Shown here: positions 13,629 through 23,136 of the stretch, piece by piece | Layout: each line of letters opens with the position of its first letter | Numbering within the stretch: position 1 is the first letter of the stretch | Origin: Paludibacteraceae bacterium | GTDB taxonomy: Bacteria > Bacteroidota > Bacteroidia > Bacteroidales > Paludibacteraceae | DNA: 34,693 nucleotides | Assembly: GCA_017446455.1 (NCBI GenBank) | Contig: JAFSQV010000017.1 | Location: 1 to 34,693, forward strand | Direction: 5' to 3' | The notes under the pieces: generated by a model | What the model was told of the DNA's origin: nothing | Database searches by the model: none | What the model saw: the letters and a program-made list of their open reading frames with translations, nothing else | Program-made: the position numbers and the translations under genes

Positions 13629-14678
13629 TTAGCAACTCTCGAACTGACGAAGGAAGCGCACATCGTTCTCCGAGAACAGACGCAGGTCCTTCACGCGGTA
13701 CTTGAGGTTCGTGATACGCTCTACTCCCATACCGAACGCAAAACCGCTGTATTCCTTGCTGTCGATACCGCAGGCCTCCAGCACGTTCGGGTCCACCATA
13801 CCGCAACCCAGGATCTCCACCCAGCCGGTACCCTTGCAGAACGAGCAACCTACGCCGCCGCAGATATTACAACTGATGTCCATCTCGGCGCTCGGCTCCG
13901 TGAACGGGAAATAACTCGGGCGCAGACGGATCTTCGTCTCCGGACCGAACATCTCTTTACTGAAGTATAATAAGGCCTCGCGCAGATCGGCGAACGAAAC
14001 ATTCTTGTCGATATAGAGTCCTTCTACCTGGTGGAAGAAACAGTGCGCGCGGGCCGAGATAGCCTCGTTGCGGTACACGCGACCCGGGCAGAGCACGCGG
14101 ATCGGCGGCTTCTGGCTGGTCATGACGCGAGTCTGAACGGAACTCGTATGCGAGCGCAGCAGCACGTCGGTCGGTTTCTGCACGCCGGCTTCTTTCTCGA
14201 TGAAGAAGGTGTCCTGCATGTCGCGCGCCGGGTGCTCCGGGGCGAAGTTCAGCATGCCATAGACGTGCTTGTCGTCCTCGACCTCCGGTCCTTGCGCGAT
14301 GGTGAAGCCGATGCGGGAGAAGATATCTTCTATCTCTTCGCGCACCAAGGACAGCGGGTGACGCGTACCGAGCGCGATAGGATCCGGCGTGCGGGTGAGG
14401 TCAAGATGATTTACCATCTGATCATTTACCATTTGGTCATTTAACTGCTCGCGGAGCTCGTTGACGCGGGCCTCCGTCTCTTGACGCAACCGGTTGAGCA
14501 ACTGACCCAACTCACGCTTCTGATCATTCGGCACATTACGGAACTCATTAAACAGCGCCGTGATCTCGCCTTTCTTACTGAGGTACTTGATACGCAGCGC
14601 CTCCAACTCCTCGGCGTTATTCGCCTTCAACTCGCCCACCTGCGCAAGCAAAGATTGTATATTTTCCTTCAAAGCCAT
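13629..14678 (-). CDS. pheS: Phenylalanine-tRNA ligase alpha subunit
   Basis: A 349-residue class II aminoacyl-tRNA synthetase subunit that charges tRNA-Phe with PheT. It has an N-terminal coiled coil for tRNA binding (residues 1-90) and a catalytic domain with HPLSLVREEIEDIF, ARDMQDTFF, LLRSHTSSVQTR, FHQVEGLYID, PFTEPSAEMDI and the motif 3 end GMGVERI. A cysteine cluster CNICGGVGCSFCKG is typical of Bacteroidota PheS. Between the coiled coil and the catalytic domain a 15-base tandem repeat adds NDQMV twice. pheT is not adjacent. An A+T-rich 7-base repeat leader (14688-14715) and its own promoter precede the ATG. Confidence 0.97.
   Translation of the reverse strand: MALKENIQSLLAQVGELKANNAEELEALRIKYLSKKGEITALFNEFRNVPNDQKRELGQLLNRLRQETEARVNELREQLNDQMVNDQMVNHLDLTRTPDPIALGTRHPLSLVREEIEDIFSRIGFTIAQGPEVEDDKHVYGMLNFAPEHPARDMQDTFFIEKEAGVQKPTDVLLRSHTSSVQTRVMTSQKPPIRVLCPGRVYRNEAISARAHCFFHQVEGLYIDKNVSFADLREALLYFSKEMFGPETKIRLRPSYFPFTEPSAEMDISCNICGGVGCSFCKGTGWVEILGCGMVDPNVLEACGIDSKEYSGFAFGMGVERITNLKYRVKDLRLFSENDVRFLRQFESC
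14409..14443. repeat. 15-base tandem array inside pheS
   Basis: ATTTACC begins at 14409 and 14424, with ATTTA at 14439: a 15-base period coding on the minus strand for Asn-Asp-Gln-Met-Val twice, at the linker after the tRNA-binding coiled coil. Confidence 0.8.
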
Positions 14679-14804: not shown

Positions 14805-16118
14805 TTAAATCGTGACCTGCTCGAAGGTGTTGACGCGGGATTTGTCGTACGGACGGGAGAGTTTGATGTAGTTCTCGGTGAAGCCGAACATCAGGCCGTC
14901 TTTCTTCGCGGACTCCCAGAGCACGGTAGCCGTTTCGCCCTTATGCTCCGCATAAAACGCTTCGGTCTTACGCGCGGAGATAGCGTGCAGTTCTTTGCTC
15001 CGGCGCTCGCGCTCACGTTGCGGCACGACTTCCAGATCCATCTCGAGCATGCGCGTGTTGGCGCGCTCCGAATAGGTGAACACATGCAGTTGACTCACCG
15101 GCAGCGATTCGATGAACTCGACGTACTCGCGCCAGCACTCCGCCGTCTCGCCGCGCACACCGACCATGCAGTCCACGCCGATGAAGGCATTCGGCATGAC
15201 GGATTTGATATGCGCTACGCGCTCGGCGAACAGTTCGCGGGTATAACGGCGTCCCATAATCTTGAGCACCGTGTTACTGCCGCTCTGCAGCGGTATATGG
15301 AAGTGCGGCGCAAAATGGCGGCTGTTTGCCACCAGATCAATGATCTCATCGCTCAGCAGGTTCGGTTCGCAACTCGATATGCGGATGCGATAATCCGCAA
15401 TTGGTGTATGGTGTACGGTGTAAGGTGTATGGTGTACGGTGTAAGGTGTAAGGTTGTCCAGCGCCCGCAAGAGGTCAATAAAGGTCTCTCCGGTCGAGCG
15501 GCCGAAATCGCCTATGTTGACGCCGGAGAGGATGAGCTCTTTCGCGCCGCCTTCGATGGCTTCCTGCGCCTGCTTGACGAGCGACGCGATGGACGGATTG
15601 CGACTCTTGCCGCGCGCCAGAGGAATGGTGCAATAAGAGCAGAAATAGTTGCAACCGTCCTGCACCTTCAGAAAGCACCGCGTGCGGTCGTCTTTGCTGT
15701 AAGCAAAATGGAAGTCATCGACTTCCCGGATGGGAGAAATCGAGATATTGGAGATTGGAGATTGGAAATTGGAGATTTGGGATTCCAACCTCTCTACGAA
15801 CTCGTCGAGGTGGAATTTCTCTTCCTGGCCGAGGACATAGTCCACGCCTTCGATATGCGCGATCTCGCCCGGCTGCAGTTGGGCGTAGCAGCCCGTGACG
15901 ATGAGGATGGCATGGGGGTTCTGGCGCCGGATACGATGAATCATCTGGCGGTCCTTATGGTCCGCCGCGTCCGTCACGGAGCAGGTGTTGATGATGCAGA
16001 TATCCGCCTGCTCGCCGCGCTGGGCGCGCGTATGACCACGCGCAATGAGTGCCTTAGCCAAGGCACTGCTCTCCGCGAAATTGAGTTTGCAACCTAATGT
16101 GGTAAATGCGAATAACAT
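14805..16118 (-). CDS. mtaB: tRNA methylthiotransferase MtaB
   Basis: A radical-SAM methylthiotransferase that adds 2-methylthio to t6A37 of tRNAs. Residues 1-100 are the UPF0004 domain with cluster ligands Cys10, Cys46 (NTCSVTD) and Cys77. The radical-SAM cluster is CNYFCSYC (Cys156, Cys160, Cys163). ISSCEPNLL and HIPLQSGS follow, and a TRAM-like C-terminus. I chose ATG 16118 (MLFAFTTLGCKLNFAES); the longer frame adds an unlikely leader. The start overlaps the upstream kinase-like gene by 25 bases. Two heptamer arrays are built into the frame: residues about 113-128 (ISNFQSPISNIS) and 223-241 (TPYTVHHTPYTVHHTPIA), both where homologues have short loops. Confidence 0.95.
   Translation of the reverse strand: MLFAFTTLGCKLNFAESSALAKALIARGHTRAQRGEQADICIINTCSVTDAADHKDRQMIHRIRRQNPHAILIVTGCYAQLQPGEIAHIEGVDYVLGQEEKFHLDEFVERLESQISNFQSPISNISISPIREVDDFHFAYSKDDRTRCFLKVQDGCNYFCSYCTIPLARGKSRNPSIASLVKQAQEAIEGGAKELILSGVNIGDFGRSTGETFIDLLRALDNLTPYTVHHTPYTVHHTPIADYRIRISSCEPNLLSDEIIDLVANSRHFAPHFHIPLQSGSNTVLKIMGRRYTRELFAERVAHIKSVMPNAFIGVDCMVGVRGETAECWREYVEFIESLPVSQLHVFTYSERANTRMLEMDLEVVPQRERERRSKELHAISARKTEAFYAEHKGETATVLWESAKKDGLMFGFTENYIKLSRPYDKSRVNTFEQVTI
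15403..15451 (+). repeat. Seven tandem heptamers GGTGTAM inside mtaB
   Basis: Units GGTGTAT, GGTGTAC and GGTGTAA repeat seven times, the same unit as the array after glyA. Read on the minus strand in frame they give the heptapeptide repeat Tyr-Thr-Val-His-His-Thr-Pro. Confidence 0.9.
15744..15785 (+). repeat. Six heptamers GAGATTG inside mtaB
   Basis: GATATTG, GAGATTG, GAGATTG, GAAATTG, GAGATTT and GGGATTC in register, coding on the minus strand for a Ile-Ser-Asn-rich loop between the UPF0004 and radical-SAM domains. Confidence 0.85.
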
Positions 16119-16969
16119 ACTTCCGCCGCGTCGGTATTCGGTAAACAATCGAGGAAATAGACGGGTGTGGACTCCAGCAGCGTGGCGATGGTCTCATAGA
16201 GTTGGTCCATCATCTGCGGCAGGATCTTCAGTCCGCTCACCGACGAGAGGATATACGGATAGGCCTGCGTCGGCCGCAAGAGGCGAATGGCGTTCTCGGG
16301 CGCTTGCGCCAGTTGCACGAGCGCCATCACCTGCGCCTGGTCGTTCTTGTAACACGGCGTCTTTCCGCTCCAGGGTGAACCATATACCACTACTCTTCCG
16401 TCCTCATGCACCCGCACGATGGGATTATCGTCATTCAGCCGCTCGGCATCCGCGAACGCCTTCAGCCACTGCTCCGCATGCGTGCTCTTGCCTGTTCCGG
16501 ACTTGCCGAGGAACATATAGCCCTTGCCTTCGCGAACAATCACCGCCGAGTGGAAAAGCAAGGTACTATGCCCCGCCGTAGCAAAGGCATAAAGGAGCAT
16601 CAGCGTGTTGTCGATCGCAAAACGCGTCGGCTCGCCGTAGAAAACCGCCTGCTGCATGTTCGCATCGCAGCGGAACGCACCAACCACCTCGCCGTCCCTG
16701 CTCTGCGAGAAGCGGAACAACCACTCCTCTTCGCGACGGTACATCTCGATGCGCGGCATGTCGTCGTCCGAGCGGTCCGTATAGATATTCTCCCAGCCTT
16801 CAGAAGAAGGCAGGCCTTCTTCGCTAATGCGAAGATTGAAGATTGCAGATTGAAGATGGGAGATTGATGATTGTTCAATGGTGAAGGGCGCGTAGTTCGG
16901 ACACCACGCGAGGATGTCGCGCGTCGTGTCGATACCAAAAATATGTTCGGCTACGCGGAAATAAAGCAT
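16094..16969 (-). CDS. HprK-like P-loop kinase, function unknown
   Basis: A 291-residue protein with the HPr kinase or PEP-carboxykinase-like fold: LLFHSAVIV (His140), Walker A GKSGTGKST (155-163), then LNDDNPIVR and GSPWSGKT. These match the HprK-like catalytic region, but the N-terminal domain differs from true HprK, as in several Bacteroidota relatives, so the substrate is unknown. I chose ATG 16969, one base after the dnaA stop. Residues about 31-56 come from a heptamer array plus a perfect palindrome (16803-16822) and look inserted. It overlaps mtaB by 25 bases and follows dnaA directly, so the three form one operon. Confidence 0.8.
   Translation of the reverse strand: MLYFRVAEHIFGIDTTRDILAWCPNYAPFTIEQSSISHLQSAIFNLRISEEGLPSSEGWENIYTDRSDDDMPRIEMYRREEEWLFRFSQSRDGEVVGAFRCDANMQQAVFYGEPTRFAIDNTLMLLYAFATAGHSTLLFHSAVIVREGKGYMFLGKSGTGKSTHAEQWLKAFADAERLNDDNPIVRVHEDGRVVVYGSPWSGKTPCYKNDQAQVMALVQLAQAPENAIRLLRPTQAYPYILSSVSGLKILPQMMDQLYETIATLLESTPVYFLDCLPNTDAAEVCYSHLPH
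16803..16872 (+). repeat. Palindromes plus six heptamers inside the HprK-like gene
   Basis: GAAGAAGGC-AG-GCCTTCTTC (16803-16822) and TTCGC-TAAT-GCGAA (16820-16833) are followed by the heptamers GAAGATT, GAAGATT, GCAGATT, GAAGATG, GGAGATT and GATGATT (16831-16872). Confidence 0.85.
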
Positions 16970-18660: not shown

Positions 18661-19578
18661 TTATTTATCTTTTTTTCCGAATATCGAGAAGTGTACATAC
18701 CGCTTCGGATGCGCCTTCAAATCGGTGAGCAAACTGTCCGCCGAAATGACGGTAGCATCGATGTGGTTATAGAGCGATTTGTTGTAGATCAGCTGTCCGA
18801 TAGTGCTTTCCTGCGAGCGCACGTCGCTCACAAGGCCGTTGACGTTCTCCACCGTCTTATCCACGCGCGCTACGGTGGCCTTCAGGTCCGCCTGCTTGAT
18901 GTCCGCGATGATGACATTGAGGTTCGCGATCGCCGTGTCGGCATTGTTGACGATCGTCGGCACTTGGGTCTTCATCATGTGCTTGAGGTTCGCCGAGACG
19001 GACGTCAGGTCACCGGAGATACGGTCGACATTCTCCAGCGAGCGCTTGATATGCTCGCCTTCCACCTGCGTGCGTAACGCCGCTACGAGCGAATCGACTT
19101 CCTGCACCGCCTCATCCACGTGCGCCAAGAGCTCGCCTTGCAGGCTCTCTATCAGTCCCGGCACATAAGTCGTCGGCAGGAAAGAACCTTTAGCGATTGG
19201 AGATTGGTCATTGGTGATTGATGATTGGTCAGGGAACTGCAACTCTATGGCCATACCGCCGAGCATACCGTCCGCTATCAGCGCCATCTTCGTACCTTGC
19301 GGCAGGGCGATATCCTTGCGGATAGAGATATCAACGAGAAAGGCGCTGTCGCGGGTGAAGTCATAGTGCAGCCTATCCACCTGGCCCACCTTATGACCGC
19401 GGATATACACCGCTGCCTGTTCCTCCAAACCGTGCAGGTGACTGAACGTACCGTGGTAGCCGTTCGTAGGCGAGAAGATGTTCACGCCCTTGAGAAAGTT
19501 AAAACCAAAAAACAAAAGGAAAAGACACACGGTGGCCAAAATACCCACTTTTATCTCTCGTGCATACTTGATATTCAT
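18661..19578 (-). CDS. MCE-family lipid-transport protein (MlaD-like)
   Basis: A 305-residue protein with one N-terminal membrane helix (VGILATVCLFLLFFGFNFL, 11-29) and a periplasmic MCE domain (about 38-115) ending in GMLGGMAIEL. A long helical tail (150-270) carries weak coiled-coil repeats. MCE proteins bind and shuttle lipids between the inner and outer membranes. In Bacteroidota the ATPase and permease partners are usually elsewhere, and none is next to it here. Residues about 117-129 (DQSSITNDQSPIA) come from a heptamer array at 19195-19229. The start shares one base with the amidase stop (TAATG), so the two are translated together. Confidence 0.9.
   Translation of the reverse strand: MNIKYAREIKVGILATVCLFLLFFGFNFLKGVNIFSPTNGYHGTFSHLHGLEEQAAVYIRGHKVGQVDRLHYDFTRDSAFLVDISIRKDIALPQGTKMALIADGMLGGMAIELQFPDQSSITNDQSPIAKGSFLPTTYVPGLIESLQGELLAHVDEAVQEVDSLVAALRTQVEGEHIKRSLENVDRISGDLTSVSANLKHMMKTQVPTIVNNADTAIANLNVIIADIKQADLKATVARVDKTVENVNGLVSDVRSQESTIGQLIYNKSLYNHIDATVISADSLLTDLKAHPKRYVHFSIFGKKDK
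19195..19229 (+). repeat. Five heptamers GATTGGW inside the MCE gene
   Basis: GATTGGA, GATTGGT, CATTGGT, GATTGAT and GATTGGT in exact 7-base register, coding on the minus strand for a Ser, Asn, Asp and Gln-rich loop at the end of the MCE domain. Confidence 0.85.
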
Positions 19579-20684
19579 TATTCAATCCATTTAGTAATCC
19601 AACAATCCGGGAAGAGTTGTTTCAATTCTTGCTGCTTCGCCGCCACCTTCTCGCGGTCGGTGTCGATGATGGCGTAGTATTTATACCAGTCACCTACCTT
19701 CCTGCTCTCGCACGCTACGCCTTTTAACTGCGGATCGGACGCGTCCAGCGGCGCGCGCGAAGCGCTTACCTGCAGCGCGTAATAGGTCTGCGGAGAGGTC
19801 GGAGCCTCCTGAGTACTCGGAGTATTCGGAATATTCTGAGTATTCTGATTAATCAGCGTATCCGGCTTTGCCGGTTCCTCCTTAGGAGCCTTTGGCTCAT
19901 CATTAGAAACCTGTGGTTTCTCCACTTTCTTGACTTCCTGCCGGTGGGTATAAGCCGCGAAGGCGTTGACGAGGGCGGTGGCCATATTATCCATCGTCGA
20001 TTCGGCATTCAGGTATTTCTCCTCTTCGGCGTTGGATATGAAGCCCATCTCGAAGAGGATAGCCGGGCAGGCGGTCTTGAGCAGCACCCAGAACGAAGCC
20101 TGTTGTACACCGCGGTCGGAGCGGTTGAGGTGGCCGACGAAATGCTTCTGCACCTGCGTCGCGAACTGCAGCGACTGATCCATGAAGTTATTCTGCATCA
20201 ACTCGAACATGATATAGGAGTCGATGGAGTTGGGATCAAAACCCTGATAGGTGGTCTTGTAGTCCGACTCGAGTTTCATCACGGCGTTCTCGCGCATCGC
20301 TACGTCGAGGTTTTTCTCCGCTTTCTCTGTTCCGAGGATGAAGGTCTCCACGCCTTTGGAGTTCTTGTTCTCCGAGGCGTTTGTATGGATGGAGATAAAG
20401 AGGTCGGCATTGTTCTTGTTCGCGATGTCGGCGCGGGTCTGCAGCGGAATAAACACATCCGTCGAGCGGGTATAGACGATGTTCAGATCGGGGTACTGCT
20501 CCTTGAGCAGTCCGCCCACTTTGAGCACGAGCGACAGGTTCAGGTCTTTCTCTTGCGAGAACTTACCTACCGCACCCGGGTCTTTACCGCCGTGACCGGC
20601 ATCGAGCACCACCGTGTACCCTTTCGCCGCCATCATCGACAGCGTGCATAGAAGAGCTAATATGATCGTCAGCGTTTTGCGCAT
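19578..20684 (-). CDS. N-acetylmuramoyl-L-alanine amidase with SPOR-like tail
   Basis: A 368-residue exported zinc amidase that cleaves the stem peptide from peptidoglycan, usually in cell separation. Start chosen at ATG 20684 (MRKTLTIILALLCTLSMMAAKG, a signal peptide). The Amidase_3 domain spans about 23-240 with VVLDAGHGGKDPGA (zinc His31), the SIHTNAS strand and FEMGFISNAEE near its end. A proline-rich linker (about 245-305) is built from short tandem repeats. The last 75 residues (YYALQVSASRAPLD, then WYKYYAIIDT) look like a SPOR domain that would bind bare glycan at the septum. Promoter at 20713-20744. Confidence 0.94.
   Translation of the reverse strand: MRKTLTIILALLCTLSMMAAKGYTVVLDAGHGGKDPGAVGKFSQEKDLNLSLVLKVGGLLKEQYPDLNIVYTRSTDVFIPLQTRADIANKNNADLFISIHTNASENKNSKGVETFILGTEKAEKNLDVAMRENAVMKLESDYKTTYQGFDPNSIDSYIMFELMQNNFMDQSLQFATQVQKHFVGHLNRSDRGVQQASFWVLLKTACPAILFEMGFISNAEEEKYLNAESTMDNMATALVNAFAAYTHRQEVKKVEKPQVSNDEPKAPKEEPAKPDTLINQNTQNIPNTPSTQEAPTSPQTYYALQVSASRAPLDASDPQLKGVACESRKVGDWYKYYAIIDTDREKVAAKQQELKQLFPDCWITKWIE
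19814..19921 (-). repeat. Linker repeats in the amidase: 9-base array and 21-base palindrome units
   Basis: Four 9-base units (TACTCGGAG, TATTCGGAA, TATTCTGAG, TATTCTGAT) cover 19814-19849. Next to them are the palindromes CCGGC-AAA-GCCGG, CTCCT-A-AGGAG, GAGCC-AAA-GGCTC and GAAACC-ACA-GGTTTC (minus strand), with TAATGAT and TAAGGAG spacers exactly 21 bases apart (19899 and 19878). Confidence 0.85.
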
Positions 20685-20712
20685 AATGTTGCAAATTAAA
20701 CCAAACCGGCTG

Positions 20713-20744
20713 CAAAGGTACAAATTTTATGCCACATATGCAAA
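20713..20744 (-). promoter_or_regulatory. Promoter of the amidase-MCE operon
   Basis: On the minus strand TTTG (20741-20744), 20 bases, then TACCTTTG (20713-20720), 28 bases before the ATG at 20684. Confidence 0.8.
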
Positions 20745-20862: not shown

Positions 20863-23136
20863 ATGCAGAAAAGTGAGTTTACACAGGCCGAAGAGCAGAT
20901 GATTCAGCGCGAGTTTGAAGCGCTGTTGGACGACTATGCGCACACACCGCACCGCCAGAAGGTGGAGCTGATCACGCATGCGTTTAACTTTGCGCATCGC
21001 GCGCACTACGGTGTGCGTCGCCTGAGCGGAGAACCGTATATCTTGCACCCGATAGCCGTCGCGCGTATCTGCGTGAAAGAGATCGGTTTGGGAAGCACGA
21101 GTATCTGTTCGGCGCTGCTGCACGACGTAGTGGAAGACACAGACTATACGGTGGAGGACATCCGCGGTCTGTTCGGCGACAAGATCGCGCAGATAGTGGA
21201 CGGATTGACGAAGATCAGCGGCGGCGTGTTCGGCGACCAAGCGTCCGAACAGGCGGAGAACTTCCGCAAACTTCTTCTGACAATCAGCGATGACATCCGC
21301 GTGGTGCTGATCAAGATCGCCGACCGCTTGCATAACATGCGTACGCTCGGCGCGCAACCCAAAGACAAGCAGTATAAGATCGCCGGCGAGACGCAGTATA
21401 TCTACGCGCCGCTCGCCCACCGTCTGGGTCTGTTCCCCATCAAGACGGAGCTCGAGGACCTGAGCTTCAAATACGAGCACCCCGAGACCTGGCAGGAGAT
21501 ACACGATAAGTTAGAGACCATCAAGGAGCACCAGTTGGCAAGTTTCGAGCAGTTCGCTCAGCCTATCCGCGACCGGTTGACGAGTATGGGTTATCAATAC
21601 ACGCTCAAGGCCCGCATCAAGTCCGTCTACTCGATATGGAAGAAGATGATGAAGCAGCAGTGCGCCTTCGAGGACGTATATGACCTGCTGGCGGTTCGTA
21701 TCATCTTCACGCCGAACGAGTCAATGAGCGAGAAAGACCAGTGCTGGATGATCTACTCCGCCATCACGGAGATCTACCGTCCTCACCCGGAGCGTATCCG
21801 CGACTGGATCTCCACCCCGAAAGCCAACGGCTACGAGGCGCTTCACGTGACGGTGATGGGCAAAGACGGCCAATGGATAGAAGTGCAGATACGCACCGAC
21901 CGGATGAACGAGATAGCGGAACGCGGATATGCCGCGCACTGGAAATACAAGACCGGCGAGTCGGACGACAGCGAACTCGACAAGTGGCTGCGCGAGATCA
22001 AAGAGATACTCGCCCACCCCGAGAAAGACTCGATGGAGTTCCTGAGCACGTTCAAACTCAACCTCTTCGCGCAGGAAGTGTTTGTCTTCACGCCGAAGGG
22101 AGAGATCAAGACCATGCCGCTCGGTTCGACCGCCCTCGACTTCGCCTTTATGCTTCACTCCGAACTGGGCGAACACTGTATCGGCGCCAAAGTGAACCAT
22201 GCGCTCGTGCCGCTGTCCTACCGTCTCAAAGGCGGTGACCAGATAGAGATCCTCACCTCCAACAGCCAGCATCCGCAGAAAGAGTGGATGGACATGGTGA
22301 CGACCGCCAAAGCCCGCAACGGCTTGCAACAGTATTTCCACCGCGAAGAACGCCGGTATATCAAGCACGGCGAGCGGCTCGTGGAGGATGCCATCAAGAT
22401 GGATCCGGAGTTGAACGCGAACCACGACACGGCTTTGGCACGATTGTTGAACTACTACCAGATGACGCAGCCCTCCGAGTTGTACGCAGAGGTAGGTCAA
22501 GGCGCTATCCGGCTGGATAACATCCGAGAGATCGTCTATCCCAAGCGCGGGTGGAAATCGTATATACCCTTCCTCGGAAGGAATGATAAAACAAGCGCGG
22601 CTAAGCCGCTCAATGATACGCCTGCGGCGTCTAATGATAAAGAGCAGCCCGCGGAGAAGCCGAAGAAGAAAGTGCCGCATGCGGTGGTACTGACGGATGA
22701 TGAGTTAGGGAAGAAATTTGTGCTCAGCAACTGCTGCCATCCTATCCCGGGCGATGAAGTGCTGGGATACCTGGACGAGAAAGGACTGATGCACATCCAT
22801 AAGATCGACTGCCCGGAGGCGAACCTGTTGAAGACCAGTTACGGCAAGCGGATCTACTCCGCGACCTGGAACACCCACCGCGTGCAGTCCTTCGTCGAGA
22901 CGATCGAACTGAAGGGAATAGATAAGTTTGGTGTATTCATCCACGTGCTGCAAACCATCACGACGGATTTCCACATCAACATGCGGTCCATCAATGTGTC
23001 CAGCGAAGACGGTATCTTCAAAGGCACAATGGAAATCTATGTCTATGATCGCAAAGAGTTGGACGACCTCCTGAAGGCCCTCCGCAAGATCGAAGACATC
23101 AAAGAAGTGAAACGACTGACCGAATTAGGCAATTAA
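20863..23136 (+). CDS. Bifunctional (p)ppGpp synthetase/hydrolase (RelA/SpoT)
   Basis: A 757-residue stringent-response enzyme. An intact HD hydrolase domain (RRLSGEPYILHP; LLHDVVEDTDYT with His-Asp at 87-88; IADRLHNMRTL) and a synthetase domain (YSIWKKM; YDLLAVRIIF; VQIRTDRMNEIAERGYAAHWKYK) both keep the expected residues, so it should make and degrade (p)ppGpp. A TGS domain (EVFVFTPKGEIKTMPLGSTA), a Cys-containing region (NCCHPIPGDEVLGY) and an ACT domain follow. Between TGS and the Cys region, residues about 577-593 are two copies of a 21-base palindromic repeat. It heads the plus-strand run of genes. Confidence 0.96.
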   Translation: MQKSEFTQAEEQMIQREFEALLDDYAHTPHRQKVELITHAFNFAHRAHYGVRRLSGEPYILHPIAVARICVKEIGLGSTSICSALLHDVVEDTDYTVEDIRGLFGDKIAQIVDGLTKISGGVFGDQASEQAENFRKLLLTISDDIRVVLIKIADRLHNMRTLGAQPKDKQYKIAGETQYIYAPLAHRLGLFPIKTELEDLSFKYEHPETWQEIHDKLETIKEHQLASFEQFAQPIRDRLTSMGYQYTLKARIKSVYSIWKKMMKQQCAFEDVYDLLAVRIIFTPNESMSEKDQCWMIYSAITEIYRPHPERIRDWISTPKANGYEALHVTVMGKDGQWIEVQIRTDRMNEIAERGYAAHWKYKTGESDDSELDKWLREIKEILAHPEKDSMEFLSTFKLNLFAQEVFVFTPKGEIKTMPLGSTALDFAFMLHSELGEHCIGAKVNHALVPLSYRLKGGDQIEILTSNSQHPQKEWMDMVTTAKARNGLQQYFHREERRYIKHGERLVEDAIKMDPELNANHDTALARLLNYYQMTQPSELYAEVGQGAIRLDNIREIVYPKRGWKSYIPFLGRNDKTSAAKPLNDTPAASNDKEQPAEKPKKKVPHAVVLTDDELGKKFVLSNCCHPIPGDEVLGYLDEKGLMHIHKIDCPEANLLKTSYGKRIYSATWNTHRVQSFVETIELKGIDKFGVFIHVLQTITTDFHINMRSINVSSEDGIFKGTMEIYVYDRKELDDLLKALRKIEDIKEVKRLTELGN
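22597..22638 (+). repeat. Two 21-base palindrome units in rel
   Basis: GCGGCT-A-AGCCGC-T then CAATGAT, and ACGCC-TGC-GGCGT-C then TAATGAT. The spacers start at 22611 and 22632, exactly 21 bases apart. In frame they give Lys-Pro-Leu-Asn-Asp and Ala-Ala-Ser-Asn-Asp. Confidence 0.85.

Follow-up and report, generated by a model that had tools for sequence, protein, structure and literature searches.

Hairpin units in a Paludibacteraceae rel gene as a probable copy of a dispersed, protein-coding palindromic element

Results

Two hairpin units lie in the linker of a rel gene

The window analyzed here, a 34,693-nucleotide stretch of one Paludibacteraceae contig taken as a whole, contains a rel gene of the bifunctional RelA/SpoT type (20863..23136, + strand), identified from its ORF and from Pfam matches to HD_4, RelA_SpoT, TGS, RelA_AH_RIS, and ACT_4. 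Between positions 22582 and 22638, the + strand of this gene carries an AATGAT, nine bases, a first hairpin, the spacer TCAATGAT, a second hairpin, and the spacer CTAATGAT, in that order. In the sequence, hairpin 1 (22597..22609) is GCGGC-taa-GCCGC (GCGGCTAAGCCGC), and it is followed by a spacer (22610..22617) that codes for a first Asn-Asp; hairpin 2 (22618..22630) is ACGCC-tgc-GGCGT (ACGCCTGCGGCGT), and its spacer (22631..22638) codes for a second. Each 13-nt hairpin and its spacer form a unit of 21 nt, and the two units, which together occupy 22597-22638, are found at residues 574-592 of the Rel protein. Positions 22582..22618 (+ strand), coding for NDKTSAAKPLND, match the core element described by covariance model R1 (see below) with a score of 53 bits.

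A sequence-only reading of this locus had reported that the units are spaced exactly 21 nt start to start and that they code for two Asn-Asp motifs. Both points hold, as both AATGATs are in the rel frame, and one more in-frame AATGAT lies upstream of both units, at 22582. The same reading gave the spacer as 7 bases, whereas the sequence has 8 nt, and it described two 13-base palindromes, of which the first is indeed a perfect 13-mer but the second has TGC between the arms of a 5-bp stem. It also placed the units in the linker between TGS and the Cys region; they fall inside the Pfam RelA_AH_RIS match (residues 478-652) and so do not directly follow TGS. An adjacent palindrome, CCTTCC-tc-GGAAGG (22568-22581), was considered as a third unit and rejected as chance because it is common to locus L247 but absent from the unit-carrying loci L248, L249, and L271.

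The RNA folding energy of the single Rel copy is ordinary (z = -0.02; 85 of 200 shuffles were as good), and for DNA the corresponding values are z = -1.46 and 19 of 200. This unexceptional folding is what would be expected if the palindromes had arisen by chance in a GC-rich Ala/Pro/Lys/Glu linker, an explanation that we consider extremely improbable in light of the searches and the offset and shuffle controls described below.

A looser copy lies in the neighboring amidase gene

The second host in the window is an N-acetylmuramoyl-L-alanine amidase gene (19578..20723, - strand; ORF and Pfam Amidase_3). The sequence of its linker (19862..19921, - strand) holds a looser copy, in which AGAAACC/GGTTTCT, GAGCC/GGCTC, and CCGGC/GCCGG hairpins surround one AATGAT. 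On the - strand, the hairpin AGAAACC-aca-GGTTTCT is at 19905-19921, the AATGAT at 19899-19904, and the hairpin GAGCC-aaa-GGCTC at 19886-19898. The proposal that the same unit occurs in both genes is thus correct as to kind, although the copies are not identical. Model R1 did not report the amidase copy, and it is missing in all three relatives recovered at that site (genomes G021, G002, and G022).

Other genes of the window, all on the - strand, also code for repeat-like peptides, namely NDQMVNDQMVN, TPYTVHHTPYTVHHTP with QISNFQSPISNISISPI, and SSITNDQSPIAKG (13629-14678, 14805-16148, and 18661-19578).

The units belong to a family dispersed in one genus

The source genome (G000; 1.84 Mb in 100 contigs, ∼80% complete) contains 20 matches to the spacer pattern AATGATN{11,19}AATGAT, compared with 1 match to the pattern read backward. 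When these 20 matches were sorted by eye, 5 had hairpins, 13 were AATGATGG-type microsatellites, and 2 were neither. Across 41 genomes of the genus, the 12-mer CGCTCAATGATG occurs 98 times compared with 4 times for its reverse, a difference that speaks against chance, and it is present in 29 of the 41. Many of these 98 matches were rejected as elements because they are ordinary coding sequence for LND or, on the opposite strand, for IIER.

The 27 units from which covariance model R1 was made, six of them short 28-nt forms, came largely via the 12-mer, so R1 matches carry the bias of that 12-mer. Each genome gave about 600-2100 first-look candidates, of which 57-150 were scored, so that the counts are minimum values and a missing match is soft evidence of absence. 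With E values up to 0.05, R1 found at least 9 copies in the source genome and at least 23 in G006, the richest relative; in G021, where part of the candidates was scored at the same threshold, it found no copy. At E up to 0.001, at least 17 of the 41 genomes of the genus contain a copy. Among the candidates scored, no match was obtained in 118 Bacteroidales genomes of other genera, the source genome alone having matched among 119 genomes across the order. Eight of the 9 R1 matches in the source genome sit in 6 genes, so the palindromes are not confined to the rel and amidase genes. These results, with the many unrelated hosts listed below, support the earlier proposal of a dispersed, frame-preserving repeat.

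Other short repeats were observed during this work. AATGATGG microsatellites are present at G000:C36:2655-2735, C58:6526-6563, and C58:11830-11891, and the one on C36 comes after a non-coding copy of the element. CCTAG-rich intergenic short repeats form small palindromes at L060:3070, L062:12050, L067:11383, and L068:5663-5690. A scan for six-base enrichment in 307,382 sampled bases, whose rates are biased as the sample was partly picked for contigs with matches, indicated several hairpin families and did not place AATGAT in its top 25.

Most copies are in frame and in sense orientation

Of 106 R1 rows, six from overlapping loci were removed by hand (L092, L095, L204, L211 twice, and L225), and the other 100 were merged by sequence context to 84 copies, several of which are orthologues and not independent. 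Seventy-five of the 84 follow the reading frame of a sense ORF with 150 codons or more; for three of these (GyrA, Ddl, and GHMP kinase), the assignment rests on Pfam because a longer antisense ORF overlaps or the model edge is off phase. The other 9 comprise 1 copy in a 110-codon sense ORF, 3 antisense in long ORFs (MurI-like, phosphatase-like, and GH9-like hosts, named from reading the sequence), 1 overlapping the front of an antisense ORF, and 4 that are non-coding or undetermined. At most 6 of the 84 lie outside long ORFs.

The hosts, which include Rel, MnmE, YceD, GyrA, Ddl, ValRS, and RdgB, have no evident common pathway. The source genome also has in-frame copies in a DUF5686 protein, whose three hairpins differ in their stems, in a YceD protein, in a membrane protein with no Pfam match, and in RibAB, where the R1 score is only 24.9 bits.

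In the consensus AATGATGAAATGAGCGCGGCnnAGCCGCTCAATGATG, both other sense frames meet a TGA. Two antisense frames can stay open, and as read from the sequence they code for more hydrophobic stretches. Selection for a stop-free hydrophilic insert would explain much of the sense bias, but it does not by itself explain the scarcity of copies between genes.

Stem pairing is retained while stem sequence varies

The constant parts of the element are (T/C)AATGAT and its phase; the stems vary between copies and are still paired. It is thus not the palindrome sequence that repeats, a point that goes beyond the sequence-only reading. Among the 27 model units, 96.3% of the cells at the five stem pairs are paired. 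Both-sided changes occur at all five pairs (17 such cells compared with 2.8 in shuffles), and pairing falls to 22-48% when the partner is slid by 1-3 columns.

Because these 27 units were partly chosen by eye, the 13-mers were picked again by their in-frame flanks alone, ignoring pairing. The 79 units obtained have 23 different left arms; counting G-T as a pair, all five pairs form in 64 of them and at least 4 of 5 in 77. At the twelve other offsets between -6 and +6, no unit shows full pairing and 4 of 5 pairs form in at most 7, and shuffled arms give a mean of 18.6 fully paired units (maximum 28). An alternative list differs in size because duplicates were removed differently; its 80 units include 65 that are fully paired, 13 with 4 of 5 pairs, and 2 with fewer. 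These controls contradict a chance origin, and family-wide stem pairing is stronger evidence for the repeat than are the spacer-pattern counts.

Changed stem columns were also compared between orthologous copies, in groups selected by hand. Over 42 sequence pairs, 21 changes are both-sided and paired, 4 are one-sided and paired, and 12 are broken; when distinct sequences are counted, the numbers are 10, 2, and 9. Broken stems occur, for example, in some gyrA copies. Part of the both-sided changes are replacements of a whole hairpin, as in the Rel of G004, which has GCTGC-tgc-GCAGC at the site of rel hairpin 2.

Pairing that is retained as sequence drifts, together with a sense bias of 75 to 3, is also what would be predicted if the hairpins acted in mRNA (in pausing, stability, or protein binding) and were kept for that function. 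This explanation appears improbable, as presence of the element varies among close relatives, its hosts have no evident pathway in common, and the folding energy of the Rel copy is ordinary.

Linker content differs between closely related genes

Homologues without the element were found for Ddl (G002 against G000), a DUF1015-like protein (G006 against G000), and others. For RdgB, the alignments displayed for two homologues of known structure have gaps where the elements lie. Copies common to several species at one site were found in the gyrA tail, an FAA-hydrolase protein, RdgB, and ValRS; since the element has been kept across species at some sites, not all copies turn over fast. Neither excision nor fresh insertion was observed between strains. 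In a separate observation on RdgB (L135, L201, L207, L213, and L238), three loops have repeat-like stretches whose kinds differ between species.

The Rel comparison drew on 59 loci from named records labeled Paludibacteraceae, Bacteroidales, or Bacteroidia, and on a tree of 62 rows that was built with the linker left out. Hosts named in the record titles are mostly ruminants, and RUG in the isolate codes presumably stands for rumen. The linker has two units in 6 rows, half of this arrangement in 1, and something else in 55, and the starred branches of the tree force at least 4 changes in the two-unit state. The residues are thus not conserved at this site. The sequence-only reading had named two results as refuting it, palindromes in these two genes only and conserved residues in homologues, and neither was obtained. 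On the comparison of relatives, the idea of a conserved Asn-Asp motif in Rel was set aside. Each unit does code for an in-frame Asn-Asp, and a single frame is used throughout, which is consistent with a functional motif under protein-level selection. Such a motif is nonetheless very unlikely, given its absence from 55 of 62 Rel rows, the same peptide in unrelated hosts, and stem pairing that protein selection does not require.

Among 13 Rel pairs selected by hand, the linkers differ in 8 and are the same in 5. L249, which has two units, and L251, which has GVKELKSEGVKE, are 96-97% identical in rel DNA around the linker, and the pairs L249/L251, L276/L278, and L252/L302 have different linkers with 95-97% identical DNA on both sides. 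From these unlike linkers in near-identical rel genes, we conclude that the Rel linker is a bay for several repeat families, the element being one among them. Other repeat-like stretches observed in the Rel linkers of L247-L304 are of the VQEVQG, GVKELKSEGVKE, EAKGEK, SAVS, and LPTKEGE types.

RAYT-like proteins are candidate movers

A profile for a possible mover was made from 12 divergent Y1/RAYT-like ORFs. The three of these that were scanned match the NCBIfam REP-associated tyrosine transposase family with E values of 1.1e-6 to 3e-11, under its cut-off. Most of the 12 have ∼200 residues beyond the Y1 part, for which the three scanned proteins gave no Pfam match. This extra C-terminal part was noted in L150, L152, L153, L155, L156, L161, L163, L165, and L166, and in L154, L158, L160, and L164.

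The profile has matches, some of them fragments, in 29 of the 41 genus genomes; those in the source genome are at C3:604-1878 and C36:728-1726. RAYT is present in 15 of 17 genomes with the element compared with 14 of 24 without it, and across the genus the correlation between element and RAYT counts is weak and not significant (Spearman 0.22, p = 0.16). G004 and G052 have elements and no RAYT found by the profile.

Several of the 22 RAYT-like genes viewed are flanked by hairpins, and two are without any. In G003, CGCTCAATGATGAGCG hairpins flank and enter the RAYT-like gene; TTCGCTCA-atga-TGAGCGAA is present five times upstream and also in frame, in mid-gene and in the last codons, where it codes for DSLNDERK. 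G022 has TTGTCCCA-atga-TGGGACAA. The G003 and G022 hairpins share a loop, CAATGATG, that equals the constant part of the coding element. The hairpins that flank the source genome's own RAYT-like genes differ from the element, one being CCATTAGC-CCCGAAT-tat-ATTCGGG.

A second family has hairpins with 7-bp stems, for example CCGGAAT-aga-ATTCCGG, and a trailing (G)CTAATGGAC(AAAGG). It flanks C36:728-1726 and lies elsewhere in the source genome, with positions at G000:C36 (L068:651, 1811, and 1861), L062:5704, 10694, and 10745, and L069:3952-4086. The RAYT-like gene at L177 (G000:C3) has three similar hairpins (CTCGGCA...TGCCGAG) in frame, and CTGTAG-hairpin units adjoin it.

Discussion

We consider it probable (about 75%) that the rel units represent a single instance of a protein-coding palindromic element that is dispersed and, as modeled, confined to one Paludibacteraceae genus. 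The element is a chain of short hairpins, mostly with a 5-6-bp stem and a 3-4-nt loop, with a constant (T/C)AATGA(T/G) between them. It occupies linkers and loops of unrelated housekeeping proteins without breaking their reading frame and adds a hydrophilic peptide such as ND(E/G)MSAxxPLND. The results above show its dispersion, its frame and sense bias, the pairing of its free stems, its absence from some homologues, and changing content at one site. By inference, selection would leave mainly the single sense frame that is both stop-free and hydrophilic, and the Rel copy would be a near-neutral filler of its linker.

How the element spreads is a more tentative matter. It is possible, though less likely than not, that spread relies on the hairpin in single-stranded DNA form, perhaps aided by RAYT-like HUH/Y1 proteins of the genus. 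A more speculative form of this idea, to which we give somewhat less credence, is a mobile element recognized by its fold and not its sequence, so that any 5-bp hairpin between AATGAT spacers would serve. Such an element would be copied as single-stranded DNA by the RAYT-like proteins with the extra C-terminal part and, being adapted to reading frames, would rewrite loops of essential enzymes at a pace above that of the remaining gene. About equally plausible as this last proposal is a process with no transposase, in which short repeats would appear at permissive sites and shift between them through recombination, slippage, and template switching at inverted repeats. Such a process would also correct the arms to perfect pairing. 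The weak link to RAYT, the whole-hairpin replacements among the both-sided stem changes, and the other repeats that relatives hold at the same sites (VQEVQG, GVKELKSEGVKE, and GERLKVKGER) are consistent with this explanation; against it stands the recurrence of a single consensus, constant in phase and spacer, in many unrelated genes and on no fewer than 4 Rel branches.

The element we propose resembles several known systems and departs from each. Rickettsia palindromic elements (RPEs) are found in frame inside unrelated conserved genes (PMC2229807, PMC2996958) and are 105-146 bp long (PMC2229807); protein-coding palindromes are also cited there for Wolbachia and Methanocaldococcus jannaschii (PMC2996958). 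Like an RPE, the element is a palindromic repeat in frame in several unrelated conserved genes (75 of 84 copies). Unlike an RPE with its long stem-loop, it consists of chained units of 28-37 nt, short of the RPE length range; its stem sequence is free, and few of its copies lie outside genes.

REP elements of the GTAG and CGTC superfamilies are described as 20-40-bp hairpins with RAYT transposases that are sometimes inside genes (PMC3733652, PMC6006769), most known REPs being intergenic (PMC3733652). The short hairpins of the element fit this size, but REPs come in many copies, and those of the element number at least 9 in the source genome and at least 23 in G006. Hairpin-flanked RAYT-like genes exist in the genus; the flanking hairpins are CGCTCAATGATGAGCG in G003 but different ones in the source genome. 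In contrast to REPs, its constant flank is (T/C)AATGAT and not a GTAG or CGTC tag, and it is mostly not intergenic (no more than 6 of the 84 copies are outside long ORFs).

Palindromic amphipathic repeat coding elements (PARCELs) are likewise palindromic repeats that code for protein (PMC2996958). PARCELs form tandem repeat domains of 25 residues, whereas the element adds 7-12 residues within housekeeping enzymes, and no PARCEL-type domain was among the Pfam matches of the 12 hosts scanned. Our best reading of these comparisons is that the element works like RPEs and intragenic REPs, filling permissive loops, yet it differs from RPEs in length and from REPs in tag and location. Among the literature matches listed, there was no report of protein-coding palindromes in Paludibacteraceae, and nothing was found on the Rickettsia palindromic element together with Bacteroidota; most subscription journals lay outside both searches, and an earlier report of the former is possible.

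The element sits in GyrA, ValRS, RdgB, MnmE, and Rel of a genus of gut bacteria. Its free stem sequence with retained pairing separates a constraint on DNA or RNA from a constraint on protein, and the unlike linkers of sister rel genes indicate that the content of this loop changes much faster than its gene. Linker residues of such inserts should accordingly not be taken for functional motifs.
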